A stretch of DNA of 64,000 nt from Tribonema minus (lineage: Eukaryota; Sar; Xanthophyceae; Tribonematales; Tribonemataceae). Each line of letters starts with the position of its first letter. Within the stretch, counting starts at the first letter, position 1. Positions 10,745 to 51,356 of the stretch are shown piece by piece. The position numbers were made by a program, and so were the translations under genes. The DNA lies in the NCBI GenBank assembly GCA_017506865.1, contig JAFCMP010000346.1, forward strand, positions 930,001 through 994,000, in the 5' to 3' direction. The notes under the pieces are model-generated. The model was not told where the DNA came from, did not search any database, and saw only the letters and a list, made by a program, of their open reading frames with translations.

Positions 10745-10888
10745 GCGCCTCAGACGCGTTTCCGGGCTTACGGGGCCTGGAAAACACGGAATCGCGTCTG
10801 ACGCGCCGTAGCGTCGGAGATGCGCCTCAGACGCGTTTCCGGGCTTACAGGGCCTGGAAAACACGGAATCGCGTCTGAGGCGCGATGG
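10745..10888 (+). repeat. 77-bp hairpin repeat, cluster A (2 copies)
   Basis: Two copies of the unit bounded by GCGCCTCAGACGCG and its complement CGCGTCTGAGGCGC, with an inner TTTCCGGGC/GGCCTGGAAA stem. The same unit recurs in clusters B and C. Confidence 0.9.
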
Positions 10889-10974
10889 GGTCGGCTGAAG
10901 ATGTTGCGACTGCTGCTGCCGGTGCAATCTGCAGTCATCACTCCCTTCGGTCCTGCTGCTGCTCGATGTGCGCT

Positions 10975-23565: not shown

Positions 23566-25025
23566 CGTAGTCGGGACATCGGGGGCTGATTCGCTGAAAT
23601 GGCGGGGACGTCTAAGACCCCCACCCGTGGGTGTGGGTCTCCCGACTTTGGCCAGACGGTCTGGGTTGGCCGGAGGTGTCCCGACTACGATCAAACCCTA
23701 GTACTTACAAACACCCCTAACCCTAGTCGGGACACCGGGGGGTGATTCCCACAGATCGAGGGGAGAGCTAAGACCCCCACCCATGGGTGGGGGTCTCCCG
23801 ACTTTGGCCAGATGGTCTGGGTTGGCCGGATGTGTCCCGACTACGATCAAGTCCTAGTCACTTACACATGCACCCAAACCCTAGTCGGGACACCGGGGGC
23901 TGATTCAGTGAAATCGAGGGGAGAGCTAAGACCCCCACCCATGGGTGGGGGTCTCCCGACTTTGGCCAGATGGTCTGGGTTGGCCGGAGGTGTCCCGACT
24001 ACGATCCATGAACCCTAGTTACTTACACACGCACCCTAACCCTAGTCGGGACATCGGGGGTGATTCCCTCAGATCGAGGGGAGAGCTAAGACCCCCACCC
24101 ATGGGTGGGGGTCTCCTGACTTTTGCCAGATGGTCTGGGTTGGCATGAGGCGTCCCGACCAGGATCAATGAAACAAACCCTAGTTACTTACACACCCCCC
24201 CAAACCTTAGTCGGGACACAGGGGGGTGATTCAGTGAAAACGAGGGGAGAGCTAAGACCCCCACCCATGGGTGGGGGTCTCCCATGGGTGGGGGTCTCCC
24301 GACTTTTGCCAGATGGTCTGGGTTGGCATGAGGTGTCCCGACTAGGATCAATGAACCAAACCCTAGTCACTTACAAACACTCCCAAACCCTAGTCGGGAC
24401 ATTGGGGGCTGATTTCCCTCAGATGGAGGGGATGTCTAAGACCCCCACCCATGGGTGGGGGTCTATGGGTGGGGGTCTCCCGACTTTGGCCAGATGGTCT
24501 GGGTTGGCTGGAGGTGTCCCGACTAGGTCTATGCACAAACCCTAGTTACTTACAAACACACCCAAACCCTAGTCGGGACACCGGGGGCTGATTCAGTGAA
24601 ATCGAGGGCATGTCTTAGACCCCCACCCATGGGTGAGGGTCTCCCGACTTTTGCCAGATGGTCTAGGTCAGCCGGAGGTGTCCCGACTAGGTCTATGCAC
24701 AAACCCTAGTTCTTACACACGCACCCAAACCCTAGTCGGGACATCGGGGGCTGATTTCCCACAGATCGAGGGGACGTCTAAGAACCCCCACCCATGGGTG
24801 TGGGTCTCCCGACTTTTGCCAGATGGTCTGGGTTGGCCGGAGGCGTCCCGACTAGGTCTACGCACAAACCCTAGTTACTCACACACGCACCCTAACCCTA
24901 GTCGGGACATCGGGGGCTGATTTCCCTCAGATGGAGGGGATGTCTAAGGCCCCCACCCATGGGTGTGGGTCTCCCGACTTTTGCCAGATGGTCTGGGTTG
25001 GCCTGAGGCGTCCCGACTAGGACCA
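23566..25025. repeat. Fold-back satellite array 1 (about 9 units, 155-180 bp spacing)
   Basis: Units start at about 23567, 23722, 23882, 24042, 24208, 24391, 24569, 24732 and 24898. Each ~140-bp unit begins CCTAGTCGGGACACC and ends with the complement GGTGTCCCGACTAGG. In its middle is the palindrome CCCCCACCCATGGGTGGGGG, perfect in several copies. Copies are joined by 15-45 bp of aaccctag/ttacttacacac-type linker. Two copies contain a local duplication of the palindrome (24277-24300 and 24448-24475). Confidence 0.9.
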
Positions 25026-26726: not shown

Positions 26727-27796
26727 CTACCCCACCTTGTATCCGCCGCCGCCGCCGCCGGCCGCGCTCCTCCTGGCGCTCCTCCTGACTCCGTCGTAGG
26801 GCTGATCGCGAGTGAAGACGTACGCGTCGGGCAGGCCCGCGGGGGCCGCGTTCCCCTCGATCATGGCCAGGACGCACGCCGCCGCCCCCTCCGTCACGGC
26901 GAAGGGGGAGGCCTCCGGCCCCCGCCTGTGGGCTCCCGCCCTCCGCACCGCGCCGTCCAGCAGCAGGAACCCCCCGGGCGGCACGTCGACGCGGTAGGGG
27001 TCGTCGTCCCGGGGCTCCACGACCCACGGGTACCACCCGCTGAGCGCGACCAGCAGGCACAGGCCCGCGGTCGCCTCCCCCCCGACGAAGTCGTCGCGGT
27101 AGAAGGGCTGCGCGGTCAGCCCCTTGTCGAGCTGGGCCCTGAGCCTGAAGCCCGCGCGCCAGGTGGCCCTGACGGAGAGGGGCCCGCAGGCGGCGGCCAG
27201 GGCGGCCTTCCACGGCTCGAGGGCGCCCTCCGGGGCCGGGGCGATGTGCCTGCCGAATCGCCACGCCTCTCCCTGCTTGGGATTTCCGGAGAAGTGCATC
27301 TCCTCGCCCGCGAGGGGGCCGGAGGCCGCCGCCAGCAGGCGGGCGAAGACGTCGGGCGGCAGGGCGCCCGCGACGACGCCCGCCGAGAGCAGCTTGGCGG
27401 GGGACGACTCACGGACGACGTCGTCGAAGTCCCTGGCCCTCCTGACGGAGTTGGCGGTGAGGGACTTACCGCCCCCTCCGGCGGCGTAGCCCGGGGAGGC
27501 CGGCGCGGGGCGACCGGACGAGGACGAGGAGGGCGACGCGGCGACGCCCCCCGCGCGGCCTCCCGCGGAGGGGCGCGTCGCGGGCCCCCCCGTCTCCGGC
27601 AGCACCGCCCACGGGTGGTCGTCTCTCTTCGGGGTGTCGGCGTCGGCGGCGCCGAGGTCGAACGCCTCGGGCGGGTACAGCGCCGGCGGCGGCGGCATCG
27701 CCTCGCCACCGCTCAGCAGGGACCCGATGCGCACCGCGTCCTCCTCCAGCTCCTCCTCCTCCGACCGAGCTCGGGCCGCCGCCGGCGCTGCCGGCG

Positions 27797-27827
<31 letters not shown>

Positions 27828-29525
27828 GCCGGAGCCCTGGTCGCCCTCCGACGCCGAGAACGCCTCTCCGTCCGCGCTCTCCGTGCTCAGCGGCGGGGGG
27901 ACGCGGAGCGATCCTCCGTCGGCCGCGAGGGGGGCGAGAGGAGGGGGGACGACGGACGCCGACCGGGGCCTCGCCGCCTCGGGGGCGGCGCCGGAGGCTC
28001 GCGGGGGCGGAGGCGGCATGCCGCCTCCCCCGGAAACGGGCGCGGCGGGCTTCTGAGGGAGAGCGGCCGGTCGCTGCTGCTGCTGAGGGGGGGGCACGCC
28101 CTGCTGCTGCTGCTGCTGAGGGGGGGGCACGCCCTGCTGCTGCTGCTGCTGAGGGGGGGGCACGCCCTGCTGCTGCTGCTGCTGAGGGGGGGGCACGCCC
28201 TGCTGCTGCTGCTGCTGAGGGGGGGGCACGCACTGCTGCTGCTGCTGCTGAGGGGGGGGCACGCACTGCTGCTGCTGCTGAGGGGGGGGCACGCCCTGCT
28301 GCTGCTGCTGCTGAGGGGGGGGCACGGCCTGCTGCTGCTGCTGAGGGGGGGGCACGCCCTGCTGCTGCTGCTGCTGAGGGGGGGGCACGGCCTGCTGCTG
28401 CTGCTGAGGGAGGGGGGGCACGCCCTGCTGCTGCTGCTGATGCGGCTGCTGAGGGAGGGGGCCGACCTGCTGTCGCACGGGTACATGGGGACCCGTCGAC
28501 GCCGGCGCGGGCGTCGGCTCGGACTCCATGCGGGGCGCGGGAGGGGGCAGCGGCGTCCCGCCATCACCCGCCTTTCCCGCGGTCTGGGCTCGCAGCTCCG
28601 ACCACGGCACGCCTGGACCGGGGGAGTCCTGGACGGGGCGGGACGAGGGCGCCGGGGGAGAGGCTGCCGCCGCGGACGCCGGGGGAACGGCGGCGGCGGC
28701 GGCGGCCTCCGCGGCGTCGACCGCGGCGGGCGTGGCTCCCGGGGGAGAGGCTGCCGCCGCGGACGCCGGGGGAACCGCTGCGGCCGCGGCCGCGGACGCG
28801 GCGTCTACGTCGGCGGGAGTGGCTCCCTGTGCCGGCGTCGTCGCCTCGGAGGCCGCCGCCGCCGCCGTGCGATCGGGCGAGGAGATCGACGCGGCCGCCG
28901 TGCGATCGGGCGAGGAGATCGACGCGGCCGCCGCGGCGGCGGCAGCAGCCGCCCGCTCCTCCGCGCCGCTCTCGACGCCCCGCCCCTCCACGGCCTGTCT
29001 CTTGTCGCGATGCCGGGAGACCTCGTCCGGCACCGCCTCCGCCGCCCGCTTCAGCTCCTCAGAGAACCCCTCGTCGGCCGCGATCTCCGCCATCAGAGCC
29101 TCCTTCATCGCGGCCCTGAGGCGAGCGATCTCCGCGTCCTTGGCCAAACATTCCCTCGTCTCCTGTGCCAGGGACGCAGCGTGTAAGGACTCCGTCCTGT
29201 CCCAGGTCGCGGACGCGGTTCTGGCGGAGGCCTCCTCGGCCCGCAGCGCGGCTTCCGCGGCCCGCAGCGCGGCTTCCGCGGCGTCCCGCTCCGCCTTCAA
29301 TTTCGCCACGGCTGCGTACGCCTCGGCCATGTCGTTCTCATTCAGCTTCTTGTGTGTCGCGAGATCCGCCTGCGCCGCCTTCATCCTCTGGAAGTCGGAG
29401 TCGCGCTCCGCCCTCAGCGCGACCAACTTGCGGTGTATGTCGAGTGCGACGGGCCTGTCGGCGCCGACGTCATCGTCTCCACAGATCTCCATCTGCTGGC
29501 GATCGGTGATGTGCAGATGACGCGT

Positions 29526-29562
<37 letters not shown>

Positions 29563-29822
29563 CTGTAATCGAGTCAGGGCGACACCCACAGAGAGCGAGA
29601 GACAGATGGGATCGTGCGGATGCACGACTGAGCGGATTCCCGGTACGGCCTCGCTGGGATGCGCACGCCCCTCTCCTCCCGCCCGTTCCCCTCCTCTCCC
29701 TCCTTCCTGCAGGCGGGAGGTGCGGGACGGAGCGCTCGGATCGCCGGGCGGCGAGATGGGCAGGCGGCTCCAGGCTCTAGGGGCTCGCTCACCTCTGGCG
29801 ATTCCTTGGACTCGCTCGCCAT
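26727..29822 (-). CDS. Tandem-exon gene, copy 1: the only copy with the complete 3' end
   Basis: Exon 1-type segment 29822-29793 (MASESKESPE), intron 29792-29493 (GTGAGC...GCCAGCAG, 300 bp) and terminal exon 29492-26727 (MEICGDDDVGADRP...GGGGYKVG). Read alone it is 931 residues. Layout: an Ala/Glu/Lys/Arg coiled coil in the first ~145 exon-2 residues, an Ala-rich segment with a repeated SISSPDRTAAA, a Pro/Gln domain of VPPPQQQQQQG-type repeats, a Ser/Ala/Pro linker, and a conserved C-terminal ~230 residues. That C-terminal domain (AQPFYRDDFVGG...LLVALSGWYPW...VDVPPGGFLLLDGAVRRAGA) is shared in pattern with the paralogues at 44.6 and 47.3 kb. It loosely resembles a double-stranded beta-helix/oxygenase fold, but the usual HxD is not preserved. 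Function unknown. Confidence 0.7.
28069..28462 (-). repeat. Coding CAG/CCCCCC minisatellite (VPPPQQQQQQG repeats), in each of the six units
   Basis: Repeats of GAGGGGGGGGCACGCC plus four to six CTG triplets encode Val-Pro-Pro-Pro followed by 4-6 Gln and Gly, Ala or Cys. The same block recurs every 2,820 bp at 30889, 33709, 36529, 39349 and 42169 (start positions). Confidence 0.9.
29527..29563 (+). repeat. (TG)n microsatellite in the intron of each unit
   Basis: About 17 TG dinucleotides, lying on the minus strand as (CA)n upstream of the predicted acceptor at 29493. The tract is repeated with the same length in every unit (32347, 35167, 37987, 40807 and 43627). Confidence 0.9.
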
Positions 29823-30616
29823 CGCCCCCTCCGTGACCGCGAGCCACGGGTACCACCCGCTGAGCGCGACCAGCAGGCACAGGCCCGCGGTCGCCTCCCC
29901 CCCGACGAAGTCGTCGCGGTAGAAGGGCTGCGCGGTCAGCCCCTTGTCGAGCTGGGCCCTGAGCCTGAAGCCCGCGCGCCAGGTGGCCCTGACGGAGAGG
30001 GGCCCGCAGGCGGCGGCCAGGGCGGCCTTCCACGGCTCGAGGGCGCCCTCCGGGGCCGGGGCGATGTGCCTGCCGAATCGCCACGCCTCTCCCTGCTTAG
30101 GATTTCCGGAGAAGTGCATCTCCTCGCCCGCGAGGGGGCCGGAGGCCGCCGCCAGCAGGCGGGCGAAGACGTCGGGCGGCAGGGCGCCCGCGACGACGCC
30201 CGCCGAGAGCAGCTTGGCGGGGGACGACTCACGGACGACGTCGTCGAAGTCCCTGGCCCTCCTGACGGAGTTGGCGGTGAGGGACTTACCGCCCCCTCCG
30301 GCGGCGTAGCCCGGGGAGGCCGGCGCGGGGCGACCGGACGAGGACGAGGAGGGCGACGCGGCGACGCCCCCCGCGCGGCCTCCCGCGGAGGGGCGCGTCG
30401 CGGGCCCCCCCGTCTCCGGCAGCACCGCCCACGGGTGGTCGTCTCTCTTCGGGGTGTCGGCGTCGGCGGCGCCGAGGTCGAACGCCTCGGGCGGGTACAG
30501 CGCCGGCGGCGGCGGCATCGCCTCGCCACCGCTCAGCAGGGACCCGATGCGCACCGCGTCCTCCTCCAGCTCCTCCTCCTCCGACCGAGCTCGGGCCGCC
30601 GCCGGCGCTGCCGGCG

Positions 30617-30647
<31 letters not shown>

Positions 30648-32312
30648 GCCGGAGCCCTGGTCGCCCTCCGACGCCGAGAACGCCTCTCCGTCCGCGCTCT
30701 CCGTGCTCAGCGGCGGGGGGACGCGGAGCGATCCTCCGTCGGCCGCGAGGGGGGCGAGAGGAGGGGGGACGACGGACGCCGACCGGGGCCTCGCCGCCTC
30801 GGGGGCGGCGCCGGAGGCTCGCGGGGGCGGAGGCGGCATGCCGCCTCCCCCGGAAACGGGCGCGGCGGGCTTCTGAGGGAGAGCGGCCGGTCGCTGCTGC
30901 TGCTGAGGGGGGGGCACGCCCTGCTGCTGCTGCTGCTGAGGGGGGGGCACGCCCTGCTGCTGCTGCTGCTGAGGGGGGGGCACGCCCTGCTGCTGCTGCT
31001 GCTGAGGGGGGGGCACGCCCTGCTGCTGCTGCTGCTGAGGGGGGGGCACGCACTGCTGCTGCTGCTGCTGAGGGGGGGGCACGCACTGCTGCTGCTGCTG
31101 AGGGGGGGGCACGCCCTGCTGCTGCTGCTGCTGAGGGGGGGGCACGGCCTGCTGCTGCTGCTGAGGGGGGGGCACGCCCTGCTGCTGCTGCTGCTGAGGG
31201 GGGGGCACGGCCTGCTGCTGCTGCTGAGGGAGGGGGGGCACGCCCTGCTGCTGCTGCTGATGCGGCTGCTGAGGGAGGGGGCCGACCTGCTGTCGCACGG
31301 GTACATGGGGACCCGTCGACGCCGGCGCGGGCGTCGGCTCGGACTCCATGCGGGGCGCGGGAGGGGGCAGCGGCGTCCCGCCATCACCCGCCTTTCCCGC
31401 GGTCTGGGCTCGCAGCTCCGACCACGGCACGCCTGGACCGGGGGAGTCCTGGACGGGGCGGGACGAGGGCGCCGGGGGAGAGGCTGCCGCCGCGGACGCC
31501 GGGGGAACGGCGGCGGCGGCGGCGGCCTCCGCGGCGTCGACCGCGGCGGGCGTGGCTCCCGGGGGAGAGGCTGCCGCCGCGGACGCCGGGGGAACCGCTG
31601 CGGCCGCGGCCGCGGACGCGGCGTCTACGTCGGCGGGAGTGGCTCCCTGTGCCGGCGTCGTCGCCTCGGAGGCCGCCGCCGCCGCCGTGCGATCGGGCGA
31701 GGAGATCGACGCGGCCGCCGTGCGATCGGGCGAGGAGATCGACGCGGCCGCCGCGGCGGCGGCAGCAGCCGCCCGCTCCTCCGCGCCGCTCTCGACGCCC
31801 CGCCCCTCCACGGCCTGTCTCTTGTCGCGATGCCGGGAGACCTCGTCCGGCACCGCCTCCGCCGCCCGCTTCAGCTCCTCAGAGAACCCCTCGTCGGCCG
31901 CGATCTCCGCCATCAGAGCCTCCTTCATCGCGGCCCTGAGGCGAGCGATCTCCGCGTCCTTGGCCAAACATTCCCTCGTCTCCTGTGCCAGGGACGCAGC
32001 GTGTAAGGACTCCGTCCTGTCCCAGGTCGCGGACGCGGTTCTGGCGGAGGCCTCCTCGGCCCGCAGCGCGGCTTCCGCGGCCCGCAGCGCGGCTTCCGCG
32101 GCGTCCCGCTCCGCCTTCAATTTCGCCACGGCTGCGTACGCCTCGGCCATGTCGTTCTCATTCAGCTTCTTGTGTGTCGCGAGATCCGCCTGCGCCGCCT
32201 TCATCCTCTGGAAGTCGGAGTCGCGCTCCGCCCTCAGCGCGACCAACTTGCGGTGTATGTCGAGTGCGACGGGCCTGTCGGCGCCGACGTCATCGTCTCC
32301 ACAGATCTCCAT
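29793..32312 (-). CDS. Tandem-exon gene, copy 2 (internal 2,520-bp exon)
   Basis: This is the same exon as copy 1, but the C-terminal domain is cut after LLVALSGWYPW. The frame then reads LAVTEGA and straight into MASESKESPE, ending at a splice donor (GTGAGC at 29792). Unspliced it runs to a stop at 29574, giving 912 residues. The exon is exactly 840 codons. It carries the synonymous change at 30099 shared by copies 2-6 and lacks the copy 5/6 change. Confidence 0.65.
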
Positions 32313-32345
32313 CTGCTGGCGATCGGTGATGTGCAGATGACGCGT

Positions 32346-32382
<37 letters not shown>

Positions 32383-32612
32383 CTGTAATCGAGTCAGGGC
32401 GACACCCACAGAGAGCGAGAGACAGATGGGATCGTGCGGATGCACGACTGAGCGGATTCCCGGTACGGCCTCGCTGGGATGCGCACGCCCCTCTCCTCCC
32501 GCCCGTTCCCCTCCTCTCCCTCCTTCCTGCAGGCGGGAGGTGCGGGACGGAGCGCTCGGATCGCCGGGCGGCGAGATGGGCAGGCGGCTCCAGGCTCTAG
32601 GGGCTCGCTCAC

Positions 32613-33436
32613 CTCTGGCGATTCCTTGGACTCGCTCGCCATCGCCCCCTCCGTGACCGCGAGCCACGGGTACCACCCGCTGAGCGCGACCAGCAGGCAC
32701 AGGCCCGCGGTCGCCTCCCCCCCGACGAAGTCGTCGCGGTAGAAGGGCTGCGCGGTCAGCCCCTTGTCGAGCTGGGCCCTGAGCCTGAAGCCCGCGCGCC
32801 AGGTGGCCCTGACGGAGAGGGGCCCGCAGGCGGCGGCCAGGGCGGCCTTCCACGGCTCGAGGGCGCCCTCCGGGGCCGGGGCGATGTGCCTGCCGAATCG
32901 CCACGCCTCTCCCTGCTTAGGATTTCCGGAGAAGTGCATCTCCTCGCCCGCGAGGGGGCCGGAGGCCGCCGCCAGCAGGCGGGCGAAGACGTCGGGCGGC
33001 AGGGCGCCCGCGACGACGCCCGCCGAGAGCAGCTTGGCGGGGGACGACTCACGGACGACGTCGTCGAAGTCCCTGGCCCTCCTGACGGAGTTGGCGGTGA
33101 GGGACTTACCGCCCCCTCCGGCGGCGTAGCCCGGGGAGGCCGGCGCGGGGCGACCGGACGAGGACGAGGAGGGCGACGCGGCGACGCCCCCCGCGCGGCC
33201 TCCCGCGGAGGGGCGCGTCGCGGGCCCCCCCGTCTCCGGCAGCACCGCCCACGGGTGGTCGTCTCTCTTCGGGGTGTCGGCGTCGGCGGCGCCGAGGTCG
33301 AACGCCTCGGGCGGGTACAGCGCCGGCGGCGGCGGCATCGCCTCGCCACCGCTCAGCAGGGACCCGATGCGCACCGCGTCCTCCTCCAGCTCCTCCTCCT
33401 CCGACCGAGCTCGGGCCGCCGCCGGCGCTGCCGGCG

Positions 33437-33467
<31 letters not shown>

Positions 33468-35132
33468 GCCGGAGCCCTGGTCGCCCTCCGACGCCGAGAA
33501 CGCCTCTCCGTCCGCGCTCTCCGTGCTCAGCGGCGGGGGGACGCGGAGCGATCCTCCGTCGGCCGCGAGGGGGGCGAGAGGAGGGGGGACGACGGACGCC
33601 GACCGGGGCCTCGCCGCCTCGGGGGCGGCGCCGGAGGCTCGCGGGGGCGGAGGCGGCATGCCGCCTCCCCCGGAAACGGGCGCGGCGGGCTTCTGAGGGA
33701 GAGCGGCCGGTCGCTGCTGCTGCTGAGGGGGGGGCACGCCCTGCTGCTGCTGCTGCTGAGGGGGGGGCACGCCCTGCTGCTGCTGCTGCTGAGGGGGGGG
33801 CACGCCCTGCTGCTGCTGCTGCTGAGGGGGGGGCACGCCCTGCTGCTGCTGCTGCTGAGGGGGGGGCACGCACTGCTGCTGCTGCTGCTGAGGGGGGGGC
33901 ACGCACTGCTGCTGCTGCTGAGGGGGGGGCACGCCCTGCTGCTGCTGCTGCTGAGGGGGGGGCACGGCCTGCTGCTGCTGCTGAGGGGGGGGCACGCCCT
34001 GCTGCTGCTGCTGCTGAGGGGGGGGCACGGCCTGCTGCTGCTGCTGAGGGAGGGGGGGCACGCCCTGCTGCTGCTGCTGATGCGGCTGCTGAGGGAGGGG
34101 GCCGACCTGCTGTCGCACGGGTACATGGGGACCCGTCGACGCCGGCGCGGGCGTCGGCTCGGACTCCATGCGGGGCGCGGGAGGGGGCAGCGGCGTCCCG
34201 CCATCACCCGCCTTTCCCGCGGTCTGGGCTCGCAGCTCCGACCACGGCACGCCTGGACCGGGGGAGTCCTGGACGGGGCGGGACGAGGGCGCCGGGGGAG
34301 AGGCTGCCGCCGCGGACGCCGGGGGAACGGCGGCGGCGGCGGCGGCCTCCGCGGCGTCGACCGCGGCGGGCGTGGCTCCCGGGGGAGAGGCTGCCGCCGC
34401 GGACGCCGGGGGAACCGCTGCGGCCGCGGCCGCGGACGCGGCGTCTACGTCGGCGGGAGTGGCTCCCTGTGCCGGCGTCGTCGCCTCGGAGGCCGCCGCC
34501 GCCGCCGTGCGATCGGGCGAGGAGATCGACGCGGCCGCCGTGCGATCGGGCGAGGAGATCGACGCGGCCGCCGCGGCGGCGGCAGCAGCCGCCCGCTCCT
34601 CCGCGCCGCTCTCGACGCCCCGCCCCTCCACGGCCTGTCTCTTGTCGCGATGCCGGGAGACCTCGTCCGGCACCGCCTCCGCCGCCCGCTTCAGCTCCTC
34701 AGAGAACCCCTCGTCGGCCGCGATCTCCGCCATCAGAGCCTCCTTCATCGCGGCCCTGAGGCGAGCGATCTCCGCGTCCTTGGCCAAACATTCCCTCGTC
34801 TCCTGTGCCAGGGACGCAGCGTGTAAGGACTCCGTCCTGTCCCAGGTCGCGGACGCGGTTCTGGCGGAGGCCTCCTCGGCCCGCAGCGCGGCTTCCGCGG
34901 CCCGCAGCGCGGCTTCCGCGGCGTCCCGCTCCGCCTTCAATTTCGCCACGGCTGCGTACGCCTCGGCCATGTCGTTCTCATTCAGCTTCTTGTGTGTCGC
35001 GAGATCCGCCTGCGCCGCCTTCATCCTCTGGAAGTCGGAGTCGCGCTCCGCCCTCAGCGCGACCAACTTGCGGTGTATGTCGAGTGCGACGGGCCTGTCG
35101 GCGCCGACGTCATCGTCTCCACAGATCTCCAT
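32613..35132 (-). CDS. Tandem-exon gene, copy 3 (internal 2,520-bp exon)
   Basis: Identical to copy 2 at the two sites that vary among copies. Same in-frame junction and same donor (32612). Unspliced it would stop at 32394. Confidence 0.65.
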
Positions 35133-35165
35133 CTGCTGGCGATCGGTGATGTGCAGATGACGCGT

Positions 35166-35202
<37 letters not shown>

Positions 35203-35432
35203 CTGTAATCGAGTCAGGGCGACACCCACAGAGAGCGAGAGACAGATGGGATCGTGCGGATGCACGACTGAGCGGATTCCCGGTACGGCCTCGCTGGGAT
35301 GCGCACGCCCCTCTCCTCCCGCCCGTTCCCCTCCTCTCCCTCCTTCCTGCAGGCGGGAGGTGCGGGACGGAGCGCTCGGATCGCCGGGCGGCGAGATGGG
35401 CAGGCGGCTCCAGGCTCTAGGGGCTCGCTCAC

Positions 35433-36256
35433 CTCTGGCGATTCCTTGGACTCGCTCGCCATCGCCCCCTCCGTGACCGCGAGCCACGGGTACCACCCGC
35501 TGAGCGCGACCAGCAGGCACAGGCCCGCGGTCGCCTCCCCCCCGACGAAGTCGTCGCGGTAGAAGGGCTGCGCGGTCAGCCCCTTGTCGAGCTGGGCCCT
35601 GAGCCTGAAGCCCGCGCGCCAGGTGGCCCTGACGGAGAGGGGCCCGCAGGCGGCGGCCAGGGCGGCCTTCCACGGCTCGAGGGCGCCCTCCGGGGCCGGG
35701 GCGATGTGCCTGCCGAATCGCCACGCCTCTCCCTGCTTAGGATTTCCGGAGAAGTGCATCTCCTCGCCCGCGAGGGGGCCGGAGGCCGCCGCCAGCAGGC
35801 GGGCGAAGACGTCGGGCGGCAGGGCGCCCGCGACGACGCCCGCCGAGAGCAGCTTGGCGGGGGACGACTCACGGACGACGTCGTCGAAGTCCCTGGCCCT
35901 CCTGACGGAGTTGGCGGTGAGGGACTTACCGCCCCCTCCGGCGGCGTAGCCCGGGGAGGCCGGCGCGGGGCGACCGGACGAGGACGAGGAGGGCGACGCG
36001 GCGACGCCCCCCGCGCGGCCTCCCGCGGAGGGGCGCGTCGCGGGCCCCCCCGTCTCCGGCAGCACCGCCCACGGGTGGTCGTCTCTCTTCGGGGTGTCGG
36101 CGTCGGCGGCGCCGAGGTCGAACGCCTCGGGCGGGTACAGCGCCGGCGGCGGCGGCATCGCCTCGCCACCGCTCAGCAGGGACCCGATGCGCACCGCGTC
36201 CTCCTCCAGCTCCTCCTCCTCCGACCGAGCTCGGGCCGCCGCCGGCGCTGCCGGCG

Positions 36257-36287
<31 letters not shown>

Positions 36288-37952
36288 GCCGGAGCCCTGG
36301 TCGCCCTCCGACGCCGAGAACGCCTCTCCGTCCGCGCTCTCCGTGCTCAGCGGCGGGGGGACGCGGAGCGATCCTCCGTCGGCCGCGAGGGGGGCGAGAG
36401 GAGGGGGGACGACGGACGCCGACCGGGGCCTCGCCGCCTCGGGGGCGGCGCCGGAGGCTCGCGGGGGCGGAGGCGGCATGCCGCCTCCCCCGGAAACGGG
36501 CGCGGCGGGCTTCTGAGGGAGAGCGGCCGGTCGCTGCTGCTGCTGAGGGGGGGGCACGCCCTGCTGCTGCTGCTGCTGAGGGGGGGGCACGCCCTGCTGC
36601 TGCTGCTGCTGAGGGGGGGGCACGCCCTGCTGCTGCTGCTGCTGAGGGGGGGGCACGCCCTGCTGCTGCTGCTGCTGAGGGGGGGGCACGCACTGCTGCT
36701 GCTGCTGCTGAGGGGGGGGCACGCACTGCTGCTGCTGCTGAGGGGGGGGCACGCCCTGCTGCTGCTGCTGCTGAGGGGGGGGCACGGCCTGCTGCTGCTG
36801 CTGAGGGGGGGGCACGCCCTGCTGCTGCTGCTGCTGAGGGGGGGGCACGGCCTGCTGCTGCTGCTGAGGGAGGGGGGGCACGCCCTGCTGCTGCTGCTGA
36901 TGCGGCTGCTGAGGGAGGGGGCCGACCTGCTGTCGCACGGGTACATGGGGACCCGTCGACGCCGGCGCGGGCGTCGGCTCGGACTCCATGCGGGGCGCGG
37001 GAGGGGGCAGCGGCGTCCCGCCATCACCCGCCTTTCCCGCGGTCTGGGCTCGCAGCTCCGACCACGGCACGCCTGGACCGGGGGAGTCCTGGACGGGGCG
37101 GGACGAGGGCGCCGGGGGAGAGGCTGCCGCCGCGGACGCCGGGGGAACGGCGGCGGCGGCGGCGGCCTCCGCGGCGTCGACCGCGGCGGGCGTGGCTCCC
37201 GGGGGAGAGGCTGCCGCCGCGGACGCCGGGGGAACCGCTGCGGCCGCGGCCGCGGACGCGGCGTCTACGTCGGCGGGAGTGGCTCCCTGTGCCGGCGTCG
37301 TCGCCTCGGAGGCCGCCGCCGCCGCCGTGCGATCGGGCGAGGAGATCGACGCGGCCGCCGTGCGATCGGGCGAGGAGATCGACGCGGCCGCCGCGGCGGC
37401 GGCAGCAGCCGCCCGCTCCTCCGCGCCGCTCTCGACGCCCCGCCCCTCCACGGCCTGTCTCTTGTCGCGATGCCGGGAGACCTCGTCCGGCACCGCCTCC
37501 GCCGCCCGCTTCAGCTCCTCAGAGAACCCCTCGTCGGCCGCGATCTCCGCCATCAGAGCCTCCTTCATCGCGGCCCTGAGGCGAGCGATCTCCGCGTCCT
37601 TGGCCAAACATTCCCTCGTCTCCTGTGCCAGGGACGCAGCGTGTAAGGACTCCGTCCTGTCCCAGGTCGCGGACGCGGTTCTGGCGGAGGCCTCCTCGGC
37701 CCGCAGCGCGGCTTCCGCGGCCCGCAGCGCGGCTTCCGCGGCGTCCCGCTCCGCCTTCAATTTCGCCACGGCTGCGTACGCCTCGGCCATGTCGTTCTCA
37801 TTCAGCTTCTTGTGTGTCGCGAGATCCGCCTGCGCCGCCTTCATCCTCTGGAAGTCGGAGTCGCGCTCCGCCCTCAGCGCGACCAACTTGCGGTGTATGT
37901 CGAGTGCGACGGGCCTGTCGGCGCCGACGTCATCGTCTCCACAGATCTCCAT
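35433..37952 (-). CDS. Tandem-exon gene, copy 4 (internal 2,520-bp exon)
   Basis: Identical to copies 2 and 3 at the two sites that vary among copies. Donor at 35432; unspliced stop at 35214. Confidence 0.65.
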
Positions 37953-37985
37953 CTGCTGGCGATCGGTGATGTGCAGATGACGCGT

Positions 37986-38022
<37 letters not shown>

Positions 38023-38252
38023 CTGTAATCGAGTCAGGGCGACACCCACAGAGAGCGAGAGACAGATGGGATCGTGCGGATGCACGACTGAGCGGATTCC
38101 CGGTACGGCCTCGCTGGGATGCGCACGCCCCTCTCCTCCCGCCCGTTCCCCTCCTCTCCCTCCTTCCTGCAGGCGGGAGGTGCGGGACGGAGCGCTCGGA
38201 TCGCCGGGCGGCGAGATGGGCAGGCGGCTCCAGGCTCTAGGGGCTCGCTCAC

Positions 38253-39076
38253 CTCTGGCGATTCCTTGGACTCGCTCGCCATCGCCCCCTCCGTGACCGC
38301 GAGCCACGGGTACCACCCGCTGAGCGCGACCAGCAGGCACAGGCCCGCGGTCGCCTCCCCCCCGACGAAGTCGTCGCGGTAGAAGGGCTGCGCGGTCAGC
38401 CCCTTGTCGAGCTGGGCCCTGAGCCTGAAGCCCGCGCGCCAGGTGGCCCTGACGGAGAGGGGCCCGCAGGCGGCGGCCAGGGCGGCCTTCCACGGCTCGA
38501 GGGCGCCCTCCGGGGCCGGGGCGATGTGCCTGCCGAATCGCCACGCCTCTCCCTGCTTAGGACTTCCGGAGAAGTGCATCTCCTCGCCCGCGAGGGGGCC
38601 GGAGGCCGCCGCCAGCAGGCGGGCGAAGACGTCGGGCGGCAGGGCGCCCGCGACGACGCCCGCCGAGAGCAGCTTGGCGGGGGACGACTCACGGACGACG
38701 TCGTCGAAGTCCCTGGCCCTCCTGACGGAGTTGGCGGTGAGGGACTTACCGCCCCCTCCGGCGGCGTAGCCCGGGGAGGCCGGCGCGGGGCGACCGGACG
38801 AGGACGAGGAGGGCGACGCGGCGACGCCCCCCGCGCGGCCTCCCGCGGAGGGGCGCGTCGCGGGCCCCCCCGTCTCCGGCAGCACCGCCCACGGGTGGTC
38901 GTCTCTCTTCGGGGTGTCGGCGTCGGCGGCGCCGAGGTCGAACGCCTCGGGCGGGTACAGCGCCGGCGGCGGCGGCATCGCCTCGCCACCGCTCAGCAGG
39001 GACCCGATGCGCACCGCGTCCTCCTCCAGCTCCTCCTCCTCCGACCGAGCTCGGGCCGCCGCCGGCGCTGCCGGCG

Positions 39077-39107
<31 letters not shown>

Positions 39108-40772
39108 GCCGGAGCCCTGGTCGCCCTCCGACGCCGAGAACGCCTCTCCGTCCGCGCTCTCCGTGCTCAGCGGCGGGGGGACGCGGAGCGATCCTCCGTC
39201 GGCCGCGAGGGGGGCGAGAGGAGGGGGGACGACGGACGCCGACCGGGGCCTCGCCGCCTCGGGGGCGGCGCCGGAGGCTCGCGGGGGCGGAGGCGGCATG
39301 CCGCCTCCCCCGGAAACGGGCGCGGCGGGCTTCTGAGGGAGAGCGGCCGGTCGCTGCTGCTGCTGAGGGGGGGGCACGCCCTGCTGCTGCTGCTGCTGAG
39401 GGGGGGGCACGCCCTGCTGCTGCTGCTGCTGAGGGGGGGGCACGCCCTGCTGCTGCTGCTGCTGAGGGGGGGGCACGCCCTGCTGCTGCTGCTGCTGAGG
39501 GGGGGGCACGCACTGCTGCTGCTGCTGCTGAGGGGGGGGCACGCACTGCTGCTGCTGCTGAGGGGGGGGCACGCCCTGCTGCTGCTGCTGCTGAGGGGGG
39601 GGCACGGCCTGCTGCTGCTGCTGAGGGGGGGGCACGCCCTGCTGCTGCTGCTGCTGAGGGGGGGGCACGGCCTGCTGCTGCTGCTGAGGGAGGGGGGGCA
39701 CGCCCTGCTGCTGCTGCTGATGCGGCTGCTGAGGGAGGGGGCCGACCTGCTGTCGCACGGGTACATGGGGACCCGTCGACGCCGGCGCGGGCGTCGGCTC
39801 GGACTCCATGCGGGGCGCGGGAGGGGGCAGCGGCGTCCCGCCATCACCCGCCTTTCCCGCGGTCTGGGCTCGCAGCTCCGACCACGGCACGCCTGGACCG
39901 GGGGAGTCCTGGACGGGGCGGGACGAGGGCGCCGGGGGAGAGGCTGCCGCCGCGGACGCCGGGGGAACGGCGGCGGCGGCGGCGGCCTCCGCGGCGTCGA
40001 CCGCGGCGGGCGTGGCTCCCGGGGGAGAGGCTGCCGCCGCGGACGCCGGGGGAACCGCTGCGGCCGCGGCCGCGGACGCGGCGTCTACGTCGGCGGGAGT
40101 GGCTCCCTGTGCCGGCGTCGTCGCCTCGGAGGCCGCCGCCGCCGCCGTGCGATCGGGCGAGGAGATCGACGCGGCCGCCGTGCGATCGGGCGAGGAGATC
40201 GACGCGGCCGCCGCGGCGGCGGCAGCAGCCGCCCGCTCCTCCGCGCCGCTCTCGACGCCCCGCCCCTCCACGGCCTGTCTCTTGTCGCGATGCCGGGAGA
40301 CCTCGTCCGGCACCGCCTCCGCCGCCCGCTTCAGCTCCTCAGAGAACCCCTCGTCGGCCGCGATCTCCGCCATCAGAGCCTCCTTCATCGCGGCCCTGAG
40401 GCGAGCGATCTCCGCGTCCTTGGCCAAACATTCCCTCGTCTCCTGTGCCAGGGACGCAGCGTGTAAGGACTCCGTCCTGTCCCAGGTCGCGGACGCGGTT
40501 CTGGCGGAGGCCTCCTCGGCCCGCAGCGCGGCTTCCGCGGCCCGCAGCGCGGCTTCCGCGGCGTCCCGCTCCGCCTTCAATTTCGCCACGGCTGCGTACG
40601 CCTCGGCCATGTCGTTCTCATTCAGCTTCTTGTGTGTCGCGAGATCCGCCTGCGCCGCCTTCATCCTCTGGAAGTCGGAGTCGCGCTCCGCCCTCAGCGC
40701 GACCAACTTGCGGTGTATGTCGAGTGCGACGGGCCTGTCGGCGCCGACGTCATCGTCTCCACAGATCTCCAT
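38253..40772 (-). CDS. Tandem-exon gene, copy 5 (internal 2,520-bp exon)
   Basis: Differs from copies 1-4 at 38563, where the codon for Asn in HFSGNPKQGEA becomes Ser (HFSGSPKQGEA); the change is shared only with copy 6. Donor at 38252; unspliced stop at 38034. Confidence 0.65.
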
Positions 40773-40805
40773 CTGCTGGCGATCGGTGATGTGCAGATGA
40801 CGCGT

Positions 40806-40842
<37 letters not shown>

Positions 40843-41072
40843 CTGTAATCGAGTCAGGGCGACACCCACAGAGAGCGAGAGACAGATGGGATCGTGCGGA
40901 TGCACGACTGAGCGGATTCCCGGTACGGCCTCGCTGGGATGCGCACGCCCCTCTCCTCCCGCCCGTTCCCCTCCTCTCCCTCCTTCCTGCAGGCGGGAGG
41001 TGCGGGACGGAGCGCTCGGATCGCCGGGCGGCGAGATGGGCAGGCGGCTCCAGGCTCTAGGGGCTCGCTCAC

Positions 41073-41896
41073 CTCTGGCGATTCCTTGGACTCGCTCGCC
41101 ATCGCCCCCTCCGTGACCGCGAGCCACGGGTACCACCCGCTGAGCGCGACCAGCAGGCACAGGCCCGCGGTCGCCTCCCCCCCGACGAAGTCGTCGCGGT
41201 AGAAGGGCTGCGCGGTCAGCCCCTTGTCGAGCTGGGCCCTGAGCCTGAAGCCCGCGCGCCAGGTGGCCCTGACGGAGAGGGGCCCGCAGGCGGCGGCCAG
41301 GGCGGCCTTCCACGGCTCGAGGGCGCCCTCCGGGGCCGGGGCGATGTGCCTGCCGAATCGCCACGCCTCTCCCTGCTTAGGACTTCCGGAGAAGTGCATC
41401 TCCTCGCCCGCGAGGGGGCCGGAGGCCGCCGCCAGCAGGCGGGCGAAGACGTCGGGCGGCAGGGCGCCCGCGACGACGCCCGCCGAGAGCAGCTTGGCGG
41501 GGGACGACTCACGGACGACGTCGTCGAAGTCCCTGGCCCTCCTGACGGAGTTGGCGGTGAGGGACTTACCGCCCCCTCCGGCGGCGTAGCCCGGGGAGGC
41601 CGGCGCGGGGCGACCGGACGAGGACGAGGAGGGCGACGCGGCGACGCCCCCCGCGCGGCCTCCCGCGGAGGGGCGCGTCGCGGGCCCCCCCGTCTCCGGC
41701 AGCACCGCCCACGGGTGGTCGTCTCTCTTCGGGGTGTCGGCGTCGGCGGCGCCGAGGTCGAACGCCTCGGGCGGGTACAGCGCCGGCGGCGGCGGCATCG
41801 CCTCGCCACCGCTCAGCAGGGACCCGATGCGCACCGCGTCCTCCTCCAGCTCCTCCTCCTCCGACCGAGCTCGGGCCGCCGCCGGCGCTGCCGGCG

Positions 41897-41927
<31 letters not shown>

Positions 41928-43592
41928 GCCGGAGCCCTGGTCGCCCTCCGACGCCGAGAACGCCTCTCCGTCCGCGCTCTCCGTGCTCAGCGGCGGGGGG
42001 ACGCGGAGCGATCCTCCGTCGGCCGCGAGGGGGGCGAGAGGAGGGGGGACGACGGACGCCGACCGGGGCCTCGCCGCCTCGGGGGCGGCGCCGGAGGCTC
42101 GCGGGGGCGGAGGCGGCATGCCGCCTCCCCCGGAAACGGGCGCGGCGGGCTTCTGAGGGAGAGCGGCCGGTCGCTGCTGCTGCTGAGGGGGGGGCACGCC
42201 CTGCTGCTGCTGCTGCTGAGGGGGGGGCACGCCCTGCTGCTGCTGCTGCTGAGGGGGGGGCACGCCCTGCTGCTGCTGCTGCTGAGGGGGGGGCACGCCC
42301 TGCTGCTGCTGCTGCTGAGGGGGGGGCACGCACTGCTGCTGCTGCTGCTGAGGGGGGGGCACGCACTGCTGCTGCTGCTGAGGGGGGGGCACGCCCTGCT
42401 GCTGCTGCTGCTGAGGGGGGGGCACGGCCTGCTGCTGCTGCTGAGGGGGGGGCACGCCCTGCTGCTGCTGCTGCTGAGGGGGGGGCACGGCCTGCTGCTG
42501 CTGCTGAGGGAGGGGGGGCACGCCCTGCTGCTGCTGCTGATGCGGCTGCTGAGGGAGGGGGCCGACCTGCTGTCGCACGGGTACATGGGGACCCGTCGAC
42601 GCCGGCGCGGGCGTCGGCTCGGACTCCATGCGGGGCGCGGGAGGGGGCAGCGGCGTCCCGCCATCACCCGCCTTTCCCGCGGTCTGGGCTCGCAGCTCCG
42701 ACCACGGCACGCCTGGACCGGGGGAGTCCTGGACGGGGCGGGACGAGGGCGCCGGGGGAGAGGCTGCCGCCGCGGACGCCGGGGGAACGGCGGCGGCGGC
42801 GGCGGCCTCCGCGGCGTCGACCGCGGCGGGCGTGGCTCCCGGGGGAGAGGCTGCCGCCGCGGACGCCGGGGGAACCGCTGCGGCCGCGGCCGCGGACGCG
42901 GCGTCTACGTCGGCGGGAGTGGCTCCCTGTGCCGGCGTCGTCGCCTCGGAGGCCGCCGCCGCCGCCGTGCGATCGGGCGAGGAGATCGACGCGGCCGCCG
43001 TGCGATCGGGCGAGGAGATCGACGCGGCCGCCGCGGCGGCGGCAGCAGCCGCCCGCTCCTCCGCGCCGCTCTCGACGCCCCGCCCCTCCACGGCCTGTCT
43101 CTTGTCGCGATGCCGGGAGACCTCGTCCGGCACCGCCTCCGCCGCCCGCTTCAGCTCCTCAGAGAACCCCTCGTCGGCCGCGATCTCCGCCATCAGAGCC
43201 TCCTTCATCGCGGCCCTGAGGCGAGCGATCTCCGCGTCCTTGGCCAAACATTCCCTCGTCTCCTGTGCCAGGGACGCAGCGTGTAAGGACTCCGTCCTGT
43301 CCCAGGTCGCGGACGCGGTTCTGGCGGAGGCCTCCTCGGCCCGCAGCGCGGCTTCCGCGGCCCGCAGCGCGGCTTCCGCGGCGTCCCGCTCCGCCTTCAA
43401 TTTCGCCACGGCTGCGTACGCCTCGGCCATGTCGTTCTCATTCAGCTTCTTGTGTGTCGCGAGATCCGCCTGCGCCGCCTTCATCCTCTGGAAGTCGGAG
43501 TCGCGCTCCGCCCTCAGCGCGACCAACTTGCGGTGTATGTCGAGTGCGACGGGCCTGTCGGCGCCGACGTCATCGTCTCCACAGATCTCCAT
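41073..43592 (-). CDS. Tandem-exon gene, copy 6 (first large exon)
   Basis: This is the 5'-most large exon. Its Asn-to-Ser change at 41383 pairs it with copy 5. It is preceded by an intron (43892-43593) and by the outermost exon 1 at 43922-43893. Upstream of that exon the sequence is unique to this end of the array, so the native promoter should lie beyond 43940. Confidence 0.65.
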
Positions 43593-43625
43593 CTGCTGGC
43601 GATCGGTGATGTGCAGATGACGCGT

Positions 43626-43662
<37 letters not shown>

Positions 43663-43892
43663 CTGTAATCGAGTCAGGGCGACACCCACAGAGAGCGAGA
43701 GACAGATGGGATCGTGCGGATGCACGACTGAGCGGATTCCCGGTACGGCCTCGCTGGGATGCGCACGCCCCTCTCCTCCCGCCCGTTCCCCTCCTCTCCC
43801 TCCTTCCTGCAGGCGGGAGGTGCGGGACGGAGCGCTCGGATCGCCGGGCGGCGAGATGGGCAGGCGGCTCCAGGCTCTAGGGGCTCGCTCAC

Positions 43893-43922
43893 CTCTGGCG
43901 ATTCCTTGGACTCGCTCGCCAT
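43893..43922 (-). CDS. First exon of the tandem-exon gene (MASESKESPE)
   Basis: Ten codons from the ATG at 43922 to a donor CCAGAG/GTGAGC at 43892. This is the only exon 1 whose upstream flank is not a duplication junction. Joining it to copies 6 to 1 through six 300-bp introns gives 30 + 5 x 2,520 + 2,766 = 15,396 bp, a single 5,131-residue frame ending at 26727. Confidence 0.6.
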
Positions 43923-43940
43923 CGCCCCCTCCGTGACCGC

Positions 43941-44634
43941 TCCTCTCCTGCGAGTGGCTCCCGCTGTGCGCCGGTTCCTCCTCTTCGCACTGGAGCGAGT
44001 GATCTGGACACGGGCCCGCCGGGCCGCCCCCCGCATCCCCCGGGACTGAGGGGGAGTTCGCTTTACTGTGCGGCCCCGCCTCGGCCCCGAATCGGCCCCG
44101 ACCCCGCCCGCGGTTCCCGGAGTCAGGCCGCGCGCTCCCGCACGGCGCACCGCCGCCCCCTGCGCGTGCTGAGGTGCGCAGGCGGGGGTCGCGCGCCTCT
44201 GCGATGCCGACGCGAGGCGGAACTGATCCACGAAAAGCGAACGGTTCGGTCTAATTCGAACGTACTCGCTTCGACGCGATTTGCGACCGACCACGGGCGC
44301 TGCGCGCCCGAGTCCGGTCGAAACGACTCCTACCGGATGCGCGCGGCGAAATCCGGACATCGACGGCCGGAACGTGCGAGGCGCGGCAGAGCATGACAGG
44401 GAGCGAAGCCCGACTCGCAGGGGCGGAGGGGAGCAGACGCGAGACGGCGACGACGGAGAGGGGGGCGCGGCCGCGTGTATGTGTATTGAAATTGACGGGC
44501 GACGCGAAGGGTACGCGCGGGCGCGGTTGACGTGAATGAAGGGTACACAGGGTACACGCGGGAGGCGGGGCCGGGCGCCGTCCGCATCGCATCGCGCGGT
44601 TCGAGTGAGCGACGCGTCTCTCGGGCGTTCGCCG
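43941..44634. promoter_or_regulatory. Unique region upstream of the tandem-exon gene, presumed promoter
   Basis: These ~690 bp separate the outermost exon 1 of the array (start codon at 43922, minus strand) from the stop codon of the next minus-strand gene (44635). It is not part of the duplicated unit, so it should hold the only native promoter of the array gene as well as the 3' region of the upstream paralogue. I see no clear TATA box or other named element. Confidence 0.35.
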
Positions 44635-45585
44635 CTAAGCGCGCCTGACGACGTCGTTGTGCTTGTTGTAGGGAGGCCTGTACCAGGTGACGGGGGGGGA
44701 GGCCGGGAGGGGGCCTCCCTCGACGGCGGCGACGACGCAAATCGCCGCCGCGCCGTCCGCCTCCTCCTTGCCCGCGCCCCCCGCCAGCAGCATCCCCCCA
44801 TCGATCAGCAGGAAGTGCCCCGCCGGCACCAGCAGCTTGACCGGCGCGTCCTCGGCGCTCCTCCTGACGATCCAGCTGCACTTCTTCCGGCAGGCGACGA
44901 ACAGGGTCAGCCCCCCGGGCCCCCTGAAGTTGCGGTGGAAGGGCTGCGCCGGGCAGTCCGCGCCGGAGGGGCGCGTCGTCAGGTAGAAGCGGTCCAGCGC
45001 TCTGACCCCCGCCGCGACGCCGGCCCGGGCGCAGCACCGCTCCAGGAGGGCCCGGGAGGTGGCCCGCGAGTACTCGTCGTCGGCGATGCGGAAGATGAAG
45101 CGCCCCCCCGCCCTGCACTTGTCGCCGTTGAACAGCATGACGTCGGCGGCGACGGCCGCCGCCTTGTCGGGGGGTTCCTCGAACGACGAAGACGGCAGGG
45201 CCTCCTCCGCGGCGCTCAGCACGTCGGCGTCGACCTGCCCCACGAACGCGCCGTCGCGGGCGAGGGTCATGGCCTTCGCGACCGGGTCCTCCGGGCCCCG
45301 CGCCGTCAGCACGCCCTGCCTGTCCAGCTTCGGCGCGTCATCCTCGGGGCGGAATCTCCTCGGGGCAGGCGTCGGGGACGCGGGGGGGGGCGACGCGGCG
45401 GAGGCGGAGGCAGCCGCGGCCGCGGCGGCGGGCTCGCTCTGCCTGCGCCTCTTCTTGGGCGGGCCCTTCGATTCGGAGAGGGGGCCGGAGCCGCCCCCCC
45501 CGCCGTCGCGCGTCGCTTCTCGCCGACCGCGCACGGCCGGGGGAGGCGCGCCCGGGGCGTGGACGGCGCTCGGCGGGTCCGCAAA

Positions 45586-45617
<32 letters not shown>

Positions 45618-46711
45618 GGACTCCCACCCCTCCTCTCCCTCGTCCTCGGTCGCCTCCTCGTCCTCCATCTCGACGTTGACCCTCTTCGCCTTCTCGTCAT
45701 CATCCTCCTCCTCCCCCTCCTCCCCGTCCGGCTCGGTGTCGTCGCCGTCGCCCGCGCCGCTCGCGCCGAGGTCCTCGTCTCCGGGCATCTCGCCGGGCGG
45801 CAGGAGGCGCTGCTTCGGTGCCGTCGCCGCCGCCTCCCGCGCCTTCGCCTCTTGCGCCGCCGCATCCGCCGCAGCCGAGGCCGCCGCCTGCGCCCCGGCG
45901 TCGACGCCGGCCGCGGCCGCGTTCGCGCTCGCTTCCGATGCCGCAAGCTCGCCGGCGCGGTCCTCGAACGCGTCCTCGTACGCTCTCGCGAAGTCCTCCT
46001 CGCGCAGCGCCCGATCCTCCCGCGCCATCTCCTCTCCGAGCTCGCGCCAGGCCTGTATGTTCTGGTGCGCGGTCCGCACCGCCTTTTCCGCCCGCCGGAG
46101 TCGCTCGTCGAACGTGCGCGACAGGTCCCGCAGGGCCTTCAGGTCTCGCAGCTCCTTCTCCGCGGCTGCGAGCTGCGCCTGGCACGCGTTGACGGCGTCC
46201 TGCGCCGTCTCGACCCGAGCGTCCATGATATCGCGCGACTCCCTGATCCCGCGGAGGCCGGCGTCGAGCTGCGCCGCCTCGGCCGCCGCCACGGCCTCGT
46301 TATGCTCCTGCACGGCAGCTTTACGTTCCGCTCGGAAAGCCAGGCCGGCCTCCACCCACTTCGCGTGTCTGGCGTCGGCGAGGTCGTTCGGGTGGGGGGT
46401 GCGACCGCGCCTGGGGGCGCCGCCCCCTGACTCGTCGTCCGCATCCCGCGCCGCAGCCTTCGCCTGCGGCGGGGACGGGGTGAGTCGGCGAGTCGGGGAC
46501 GAGGTGAGACTCAGGTGCACGCGCACGCGCGCGCGCGCGCGCGCACGCGAGGGAGAGAGAGATACAGGGAGGCGGACGGAGGGATGCAGAGGCGTAATGC
46601 AGAGCGCCATCACGAATGGAATCGGGGACGCGGAGGCGGAGGGGGCTGAGGCCGGGCGGTCTCCCTTCCCTCCGTCTCCCGCCGCGCCGCTCTCACCTTG
46701 GTCCTCGCCAT
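44635..46711 (-). CDS. Coiled-coil protein with conserved C-terminal domain, paralogue 2; intron and apparent frameshift
   Basis: Predicted exon 1 is 46711-46697 (MARTK), the intron 46696-46464 (GTGAGA...CGCCGCAG, 233 bp) and the next exon starts at 46463 in frame (AKAAARDADDESGGG). A long coiled coil follows (RHAKWVEAGLAFRAERKAAV ... REEDFARAYEDAFEDRAGEL), then acidic sequence ending in a (GACGCG)n-coded DADADADAD run. From about 45540 the conserved part (RRFRPEDDAPKLDRQGVLTA, LFNGDKCRAGGRFIFRI, CPAQPFHRNFRGPGGLTLFV, VPAGHFLLIDGGMLLAGGAG) is in another frame. It runs to the stop at 44635. A frameshift or unrecognised intron must lie at about 45535-45640. The C-terminal ~250 residues are closely similar to paralogue 3 at 47282. 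Confidence 0.6.
46519..46548 (+). repeat. (CG/CA)-rich dinucleotide tract in an intron
   Basis: A gcgcacgcgcgcgcgcgcgcgc-type alternating tract inside the predicted intron of the gene starting at 46711. Alternating purine-pyrimidine sequence of this type can adopt Z-DNA. Confidence 0.75.
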
Positions 46712-47281
46712 GGGTTGCACTGGAAGGAGAGGACGGGGAGGACTGACCGGGGGCTGTCCGGCGTGCGAGGTGACTCTCATGCGCGCTCGTCGGTTGTGCG
46801 GGGGGGCGCGGCAGCACCACGGTGTGGCGGCGCCCAGGTGGCGGCTCGGGACGGACCTCTCCTTTGAATTCTGACCTTTCGCAGTCCCCCGTACCCCCCG
46901 AGCCGCCGGTGATGACGCGATGACGCGCGCCGGGCTCCTAGCGCGGACGCGCACGAGCGCGGCGCCGTTCCGACGCGGAGACGGAAGACAGTGCCTTCGC
47001 ACGCGCCGGCGATCCGGGATGCGGTGTGGCCGTGGCCGCGCGCGCGCCGCGCGCGACCACCCACACGGGGGGGAGGGGGGGGGAGGAGCCCCCGCCCCGC
47101 CCCCTGCACGCCGGCATCGAGCGCCCTGCGGCACCGCCGGAGCGAGGCCGGCAGCAGGAGCGAGTGCGGAGACGACGGAGACGACGGCGCGAGAGACGGG
47201 GACGGCGCTCTCTGCTCGCTCGCTCTGTATTGATCGTTTCGCGCGCCGGTCTCCGTCGGGCGAGACGGCGGGCGTTCGCCG
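46712..47281. other. Intergenic, presumed promoter of the 46711 gene
   Basis: GC-rich sequence between two minus-strand paralogues. Open frames are Arg/Pro/Ala compositional. The last ~40 bases before 47282 match the 3' flank of the paralogue at 44635 (cgggcgttcgccgctaagcgcgcctgacgacgtcg), so the duplication includes some 3' flank. Confidence 0.45.
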
Positions 47282-49186: not shown

Positions 49187-49276
49187 GGCTTGGCTTGCCT
49201 GTTTGCTACCTGTGGGTGCGGGACTGAGGCCGAGTACGCTACCCTGCTCAACCCCTAAGTTCCTGCCGCTCTCACT

Positions 49277-51265: not shown

Positions 51266-51356
51266 AACGAGACCTAGTTGTCGACACTTCAGAGGAGCGT
51301 TGAGGAAGGGCGAGTACGGCATACACCCGCGGCCGCACGCAAGAGCGCGCGCACGC

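Follow-up and report, generated by a model that had tools for sequence, protein, structure and literature searches.

Can a gene that has been duplicated head to tail, together with its own start codon and intron, be read as a single giant gene, and if so, is there reason to think that selection has favored the product? A 64,000-bp stretch of the Tribonema minus genome (contig C346, positions 930001-994000; this whole stretch is called the window, and its own numbering is used below) raises this question. In the assembly, which comprises 158 Mb in 554 contigs, the minus strand of the window carries six head-to-tail units of 2,820 bp at 27024-43940, six being the assembly's copy count. Identity at a lag of 2,820 bp extends over 16,917 bp, corresponding to 6.0 units, and the array shifted by one unit matches itself at 99.986%. 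Chance is excluded as the source of tandem identity of this degree, and the amplified DNA pattern is real. Exon 1 (30 nt) and the beginning of exon 2 each occur six times, with a 300-bp GT...AG interval between them.

Only two positions vary across the six units. At the position represented by 27279, the copy nearest the stop codon has G and the other five have A, while at the position represented by 27283 C is confined to the two most upstream copies and the remaining four carry T; one of these sites is silent (Pro738), and the other exchanges Asn and Ser at residue 737. Even a (GT)17 tract does not differ among the six copies, which indicates that the amplification, or its homogenization, was recent, and on this comparison of copies the array would be either very young or strongly homogenized. 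The same uniformity, over 16.9 kb, favors a reading in which the duplication is real but the assembler arrived at six copies where there are fewer (or more), as does a one-base difference in a G run that breaks the frame of a neighboring gene relative to contig C40, through either assembly error or decay. However, the two variable sites change in order along the array, defining three unit types; the sequence at the joint between units is precise and occurs in none of 13 other stretches searched, drawn from the contig end and two paralogous regions (0/13); and both paralogous loci came out of the assembly with one copy each. We regard a miscounted array as improbable.

The paralogous loci emerged when 1 kb of the unit was used to search the genome's own DNA, the best candidates being scored; among the matches listed were the six array copies and two other loci at 86%. 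These loci, L009 on contig C40 and L010 on contig C1, are 86-88% identical to the array gene, are paralogs rather than alleles of the array, and each hold one unit with a complete exon, of 891 and 880 codons, respectively. Window positions 23118-49241 (26,124 bp) correspond to C40 388516-400198 (11,683 bp), a difference of 14,441 bp, which comes close to the 14,100 bp of five units. At the C1 locus the flanks also correspond to those of the window, with extra sequence between the gene and its upstream neighbor. Aligned in this way, L009 and L010 can be taken to represent the unamplified gene. Contig C346 (998,920 bases) ends in TTAGGG repeats, and the array lies 25-42 kb from this contig-end telomere. 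The paralogs on C40 and C1 are near contig ends, at distances of ~32 and ~83 kb, but those ends show no telomere array (one TTAGGG and two CCCTAA in the last and first 8.5-10 kb), so that a subtelomeric position for the two is unsupported.

A separate matter is whether the parent of the array is a coding gene at all. All indels between the window gene and L009 within the reading frame are multiples of three (17/17), a count that comes from one alignment, includes 10/17 indels of ≤15 bases, and may overstate frame conservation because some of the longer ones probably fall in repeat tracts with multiple-of-three units. Outside the coding sequence (CDS), the corresponding figure for the intron and flanks is 7/27 (intron, 1/6; 5' intergenic sequence, 4/14; 3' flank, 2/7), and between L009 and L010 the CDS indels are again multiples of three (3/3). 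The GC contents of the minus-strand codon positions are 0.79, 0.60, and 0.90, and GC3 > GC1 > GC2 is the usual order in GC-rich coding DNA. The antisense strand is open over long distances, the longest stop-free run being 819 codons in the terminal copy, 892 of 892 in L009, and 654 in L010, with no antisense stop in L009 and one each in the terminal copy and L010; openness alone is thus weak evidence of coding. The possibility that the open frame is merely an artefact of GC-rich sequence was nevertheless rejected, since the 17/17 indels and the codon-position GC support the frame on the minus strand.

The amino acid sequence, in contrast, seems to be held loosely. The dN/dS ratio of the window gene is 0.98 against L009 and 1.04 against L010, and against L009 it varies along the protein: 1.56 for residues 1 to 170, 0.51 for 170 to 520, 0.96 for 520 to 670, and 1.14 for the C-terminal domain. 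Divergence between the window and L009 is 11.0% in the CDS, 6.0% in the 3' flank, 16.7% in the 5' intergenic sequence, and 20.8% in the intron. Ratios near 1, together with a CDS more diverged than the 3' flank, imply weak amino acid constraint on the parent gene, which seems to have kept its frame while its sequence was loosely constrained.

The 300-bp interval is probably an intron. The three loci share the start codon, the GTGAG donor, and the CAGCAG acceptor, and the interval, 300 bp long in the window, measures 330 bp in both paralogs. About 44 bp that precede the acceptor in both paralogs are absent from the window, a loss that could weaken splicing. The first-copy intron (43593-43892, minus strand) contains a (CA)17 tract, and 5/6 of its indels relative to L009 are not multiples of three.

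At each joint the truncated exon runs as far as the residues WYPW and is followed by a 3-base filler, CTC, and then by the 18 bp of leader that precede the ATG. It occurs five times in the window, one example being 29823-29843 (minus strand; CTC filler plus the former 5' leader, read as LAVTEGA), which recurs at +2820, +5640, +8460, and +11280. In a simulation that broke exon 2 after base 300 and the leader at most 100 bp from the ATG, 81,461 of 246,600 joints (0.33) were open and in frame; since one third of such joints are in frame, an in-frame joint needs no selection. The break point, inspected by eye, is without a long shared block, which fits end joining, and end joining is the process by which we infer the first joint was produced. 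At 43923-43940, the 18-bp leader in the window is identical at 16/18 positions to part of the array's terminal exon and differs from the paralogs' leader at 3/18, making a past conversion of this leader possible.

If the six 300-bp introns were spliced as the DNA predicts, the exons would be 30, 5 x 2,520, and 2,766 nt long, all seven being multiples of three, so that the units share one frame after predicted splicing. Exon 1 of the most upstream copy (MASESKESPE; donor GAG|GTGAGC) lies at 43893-43922 on the minus strand, and its start codon and donor are also present in L009 and L010. The five internal exons of 2,520 nt follow on the same strand at 41073-43592, 38253-40772, 35433-37952, 32613-35132, and 29793-32312, the first of them comprising 840 codons and ending, on its 3' side, in the former leader plus the former exon 1. 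The terminal exon at 26727-29492 (minus strand; 921 codons plus stop, the matching open reading frames [ORFs] having 891 codons in L009 and 880 in L010) is the sole copy with a complete C-terminal domain and its own stop codon. The predicted spliced frame is 15,396 nt, or 5,131 codons plus stop, with 0 internal stops; the predicted product has a computed mass of 522.7 kDa and contains 21% Ala, 13% Pro, and 10% Gln.

These results bear out the observation of an earlier note on this DNA and support part of its interpretation. That note had described six 2,820-bp units, each with a 10-codon exon 1, a 300-bp interval, and most of exon 2, and this agrees with the lag identity across 27024-43940; its two-exon gene model is backed by the two single-copy paralogous loci. 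Its arithmetic for a 2,520-bp (840-codon) exonic unit joined in phase was right, the joint sequence confirms the 18 bp of leader inside the unit, and the reading through LAVTEGA into the former start codon does stay stop free until the terminal stop. The frame of ~5,131 residues that it predicted, with five 840-residue repeats and a complete terminal copy, is recovered by computation from the DNA.

Would such an array be transcribed as one unit? Each unit includes only 18 bp of leader, and the spliced frame has no stop before 26727. The array's only full promoter region would appear to be the 712-bp upstream interval between the stop codon of the neighboring gene and the first copy (43923-44634, minus strand). 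One long upstream interval and one stop in the spliced frame make a single long transcript the simplest expectation. With the joint in frame and all exons multiples of three, the array can in principle encode a single mRNA, one that lengthens with copy number. Because every exon is a multiple of three, exon skipping would keep the frame, and a ladder of products would be expected.

Alternatively, each unit might be expressed separately and unspliced, starting at MEIC and ending at SLWVSP in the next interval as a 912-codon ORF, with promoter activity residing in the 300-bp interval or the preceding exon. Five unspliced 912-amino-acid (aa) ORFs and one 921-aa ORF do exist, a frame that retains the intron does stop after SLWVSP, and of the parts measured the interval has diverged furthest (20.8%), as either an intron or a promoter could be. 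Yet the exon 1 start codon, donor, and acceptor are kept at all three loci, no unit contains any 3'-flank sequence, and the SLWVSP ends fall within an interval whose indels are mostly (5/6) not multiples of three, and separately expressed units appear to us distinctly improbable.

A further alternative is that the array is expressed as one 5,131-residue protein that has been selected as such, its coiled-coil-like, Ala-rich, and Pro/Gln-rich repeats serving a structural or adhesive role. In its favor are the single open frame with a single stop for the whole spliced array, the exon lengths, and the lack of an inactivating change in any copy. However, open frames in copies this similar say nothing about selection, and an in-frame joint had a one-in-three chance of arising. 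The idea that selection is visible inside the array was rejected, as there are two variable sites only, one silent and one Asn/Ser. The two paralogous loci, moreover, have no array. A giant 5,131-residue product is possible on these data; selection for it is unsupported, and we consider a selected giant protein unlikely.

The fate of the C-terminal domain also counts against such a protein. Internal copies end at WYPW, residue 823 of 921, and cover 149/245 domain residues, in agreement with the partial domain described in the earlier note, so that the array does not offer a complete domain per unit. The last 262 aa of the terminal copy (26730-27515, minus strand) were aligned and modeled with AlphaFold; the model is poor (mean pLDDT, 46), and of the seven strands that it shows at this low confidence, four lie past the cut and a fifth spans it, so that internal copies would lose four and have the fifth severed. 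The top Foldseek rows for this model of mean pLDDT 46 are 2OG-Fe(II) oxygenases (best E, 5e-4), with only 2/1,223 matches at E <= 0.001, TM-scores no higher than ~0.4, and rmsd mostly near 10 Å. If the fold assignment is right, there is a faint suggestion that the internal copies would be unable to form the 2OG-Fe(II) oxygenase fold.

By sequence, Pfam and the PDB lend that assignment no support. Neither the terminal copy nor the domain matched a 2OG-Fe(II) oxygenase family by Pfam profile, and no 2OG-Fe(II) oxygenase chain was found by PDB sequence search up to E 10. At the site compared for the HxD...H metal triad of these enzymes, the window domain has YRD where the neighbor has HRN; further on, the genes of the window, L009, and L010 align a His that the neighbors do not. 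Against Pfam, the terminal copy matched no family up to E 0.1, and the C-terminal domain alone gave chance-level rows only. The PDB sequence search returned two weak rows, an adenosine kinase and a histidine-tRNA ligase. When 5.8 billion proteins were searched with residues 672 to 921 and 1 to 205 of the terminal copy (the best 8,000 and 7,999 candidates, those with most shared words, being scored), only the protein itself was retrieved. Within the genome, a domain search in which the best 17 candidates were scored located 12 places: the six array copies, L009, L010, the upstream neighbor at three loci, and a weak stretch on C34.

Taken together, the evidence makes it probable that the array is a young coding copy-number repeat with no selected giant function, produced when a chance duplication was expanded by unequal exchange. 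The starting point would have been a single-copy, two-exon orphan gene close to a chromosome end. One tandem duplication, by end joining, would have fused the last exon, after WYPW, to a point 18 bp before the start codon with three filler bases, and unequal exchange or slippage would then have raised the number to six, either too recently for the dinucleotide tract to differ or with too much homogenization. Transcription presumably starts only above 43923 and ends past the sole stop codon at 26727; long transcripts would encode five 840-residue repeats and one complete copy, and exon skipping would provide shorter in-frame isoforms. Such an array is most likely young and probably polymorphic in copy number, with the ancestral function kept by the complete terminal copy.

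A bolder form of this reading is that a gene has very recently become one with a variable number of repeats, when a single duplication, in frame, took in the gene's start codon and intron. Copy number and exon skipping would now set the size of its products, a ladder of in-frame proteins reaching 5,131 residues; the gene would have been caught at its origin, with the two unamplified paralogous loci showing how it looked before. We offer this tentatively, as something that may be true and is more apt to be wrong.

Genes of this kind are known. The KIV-2 repeat of human LPA is built of 5.6-kb units, each containing two exons and an intron; it exists in 1 to >40 copies and gives >40 protein isoforms, its exons of 160 and 182 bp being those of a kringle (PMC6314250). 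The copy-number repeat is also treated in two further sources (PMC11201333 and PMC11462820). The array resembles LPA KIV-2 in kind, as a kilobase-scale tandem unit with exons and an intron in which protein length depends on repeat number (by prediction, for the array). It differs in that the KIV-2 unit has two short kringle exons, whereas the array unit comprises a start-codon exon, an intron, and most of a gene and ends inside a domain, and in that the isoforms and polymorphism of LPA are documented, whereas the array is known from the DNA of one assembly. UBC has nine head-to-tail ubiquitin units, and splicing alters the number of repeats without changing the frame, giving a ladder by reverse transcription-PCR (PMC10809524). 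Both UBC and the array repeat a coding unit, including its start Met, head to tail in one frame. In UBC each unit is an intact domain bordered by dual-specific splice sites, and deubiquitinating enzymes cut the product into monomers, whereas the array has ordinary GT...AG introns between units and suggests no cleavage. The earlier note knew of no such gene, but the kind is exemplified by LPA KIV-2 and UBC; as for the array itself, none of the entries listed by the literature searches dealt with it or with an array much like it.

By the time a large repeat protein is noticed, its origin usually lies far back. With the unamplified state at two paralogous loci, a sharp joint, and copies that have hardly diverged, the first step to a giant repeat gene becomes directly testable here. 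If the array is unexpressed, it would illustrate that duplication near chromosome ends easily makes giant open frames, which gene finders may mistake for real proteins.

Next to the array, the open frame of the upstream neighbor at 44635-45696 (minus strand) contains a distant relative of the C-terminal domain (32-33% identity). The neighbor as a whole spans 44635-46937 on the minus strand and ends in an 815-codon open frame on C40; in the window that frame is broken by the one-base G-run difference near 45.5 kb, which could be either real decay or a base-level assembly error. A second stretch at 47268-48025 resembles the upstream-neighbor region of C1 and C40, which suggests a further duplicated relative of that region. 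Tandem arrays with periods of ~165 and ~205 bp lie on both sides of the gene block, at 23568-25022 and 49269-51271, and match sequence close to the loci on C40 and C1. Farther away, the window encodes a leucine-rich-repeat protein at 20744-22573 (minus strand) and, at 54-1718 (plus strand), an ORF that matches DUF559 and has eight stretches of the EsV-1-7 cysteine-rich motif. Repeats of a 77-bp tandem family, with diverged short-unit arrays in between, occur at 10745-10894, 12624-13225, and 16105-16650.
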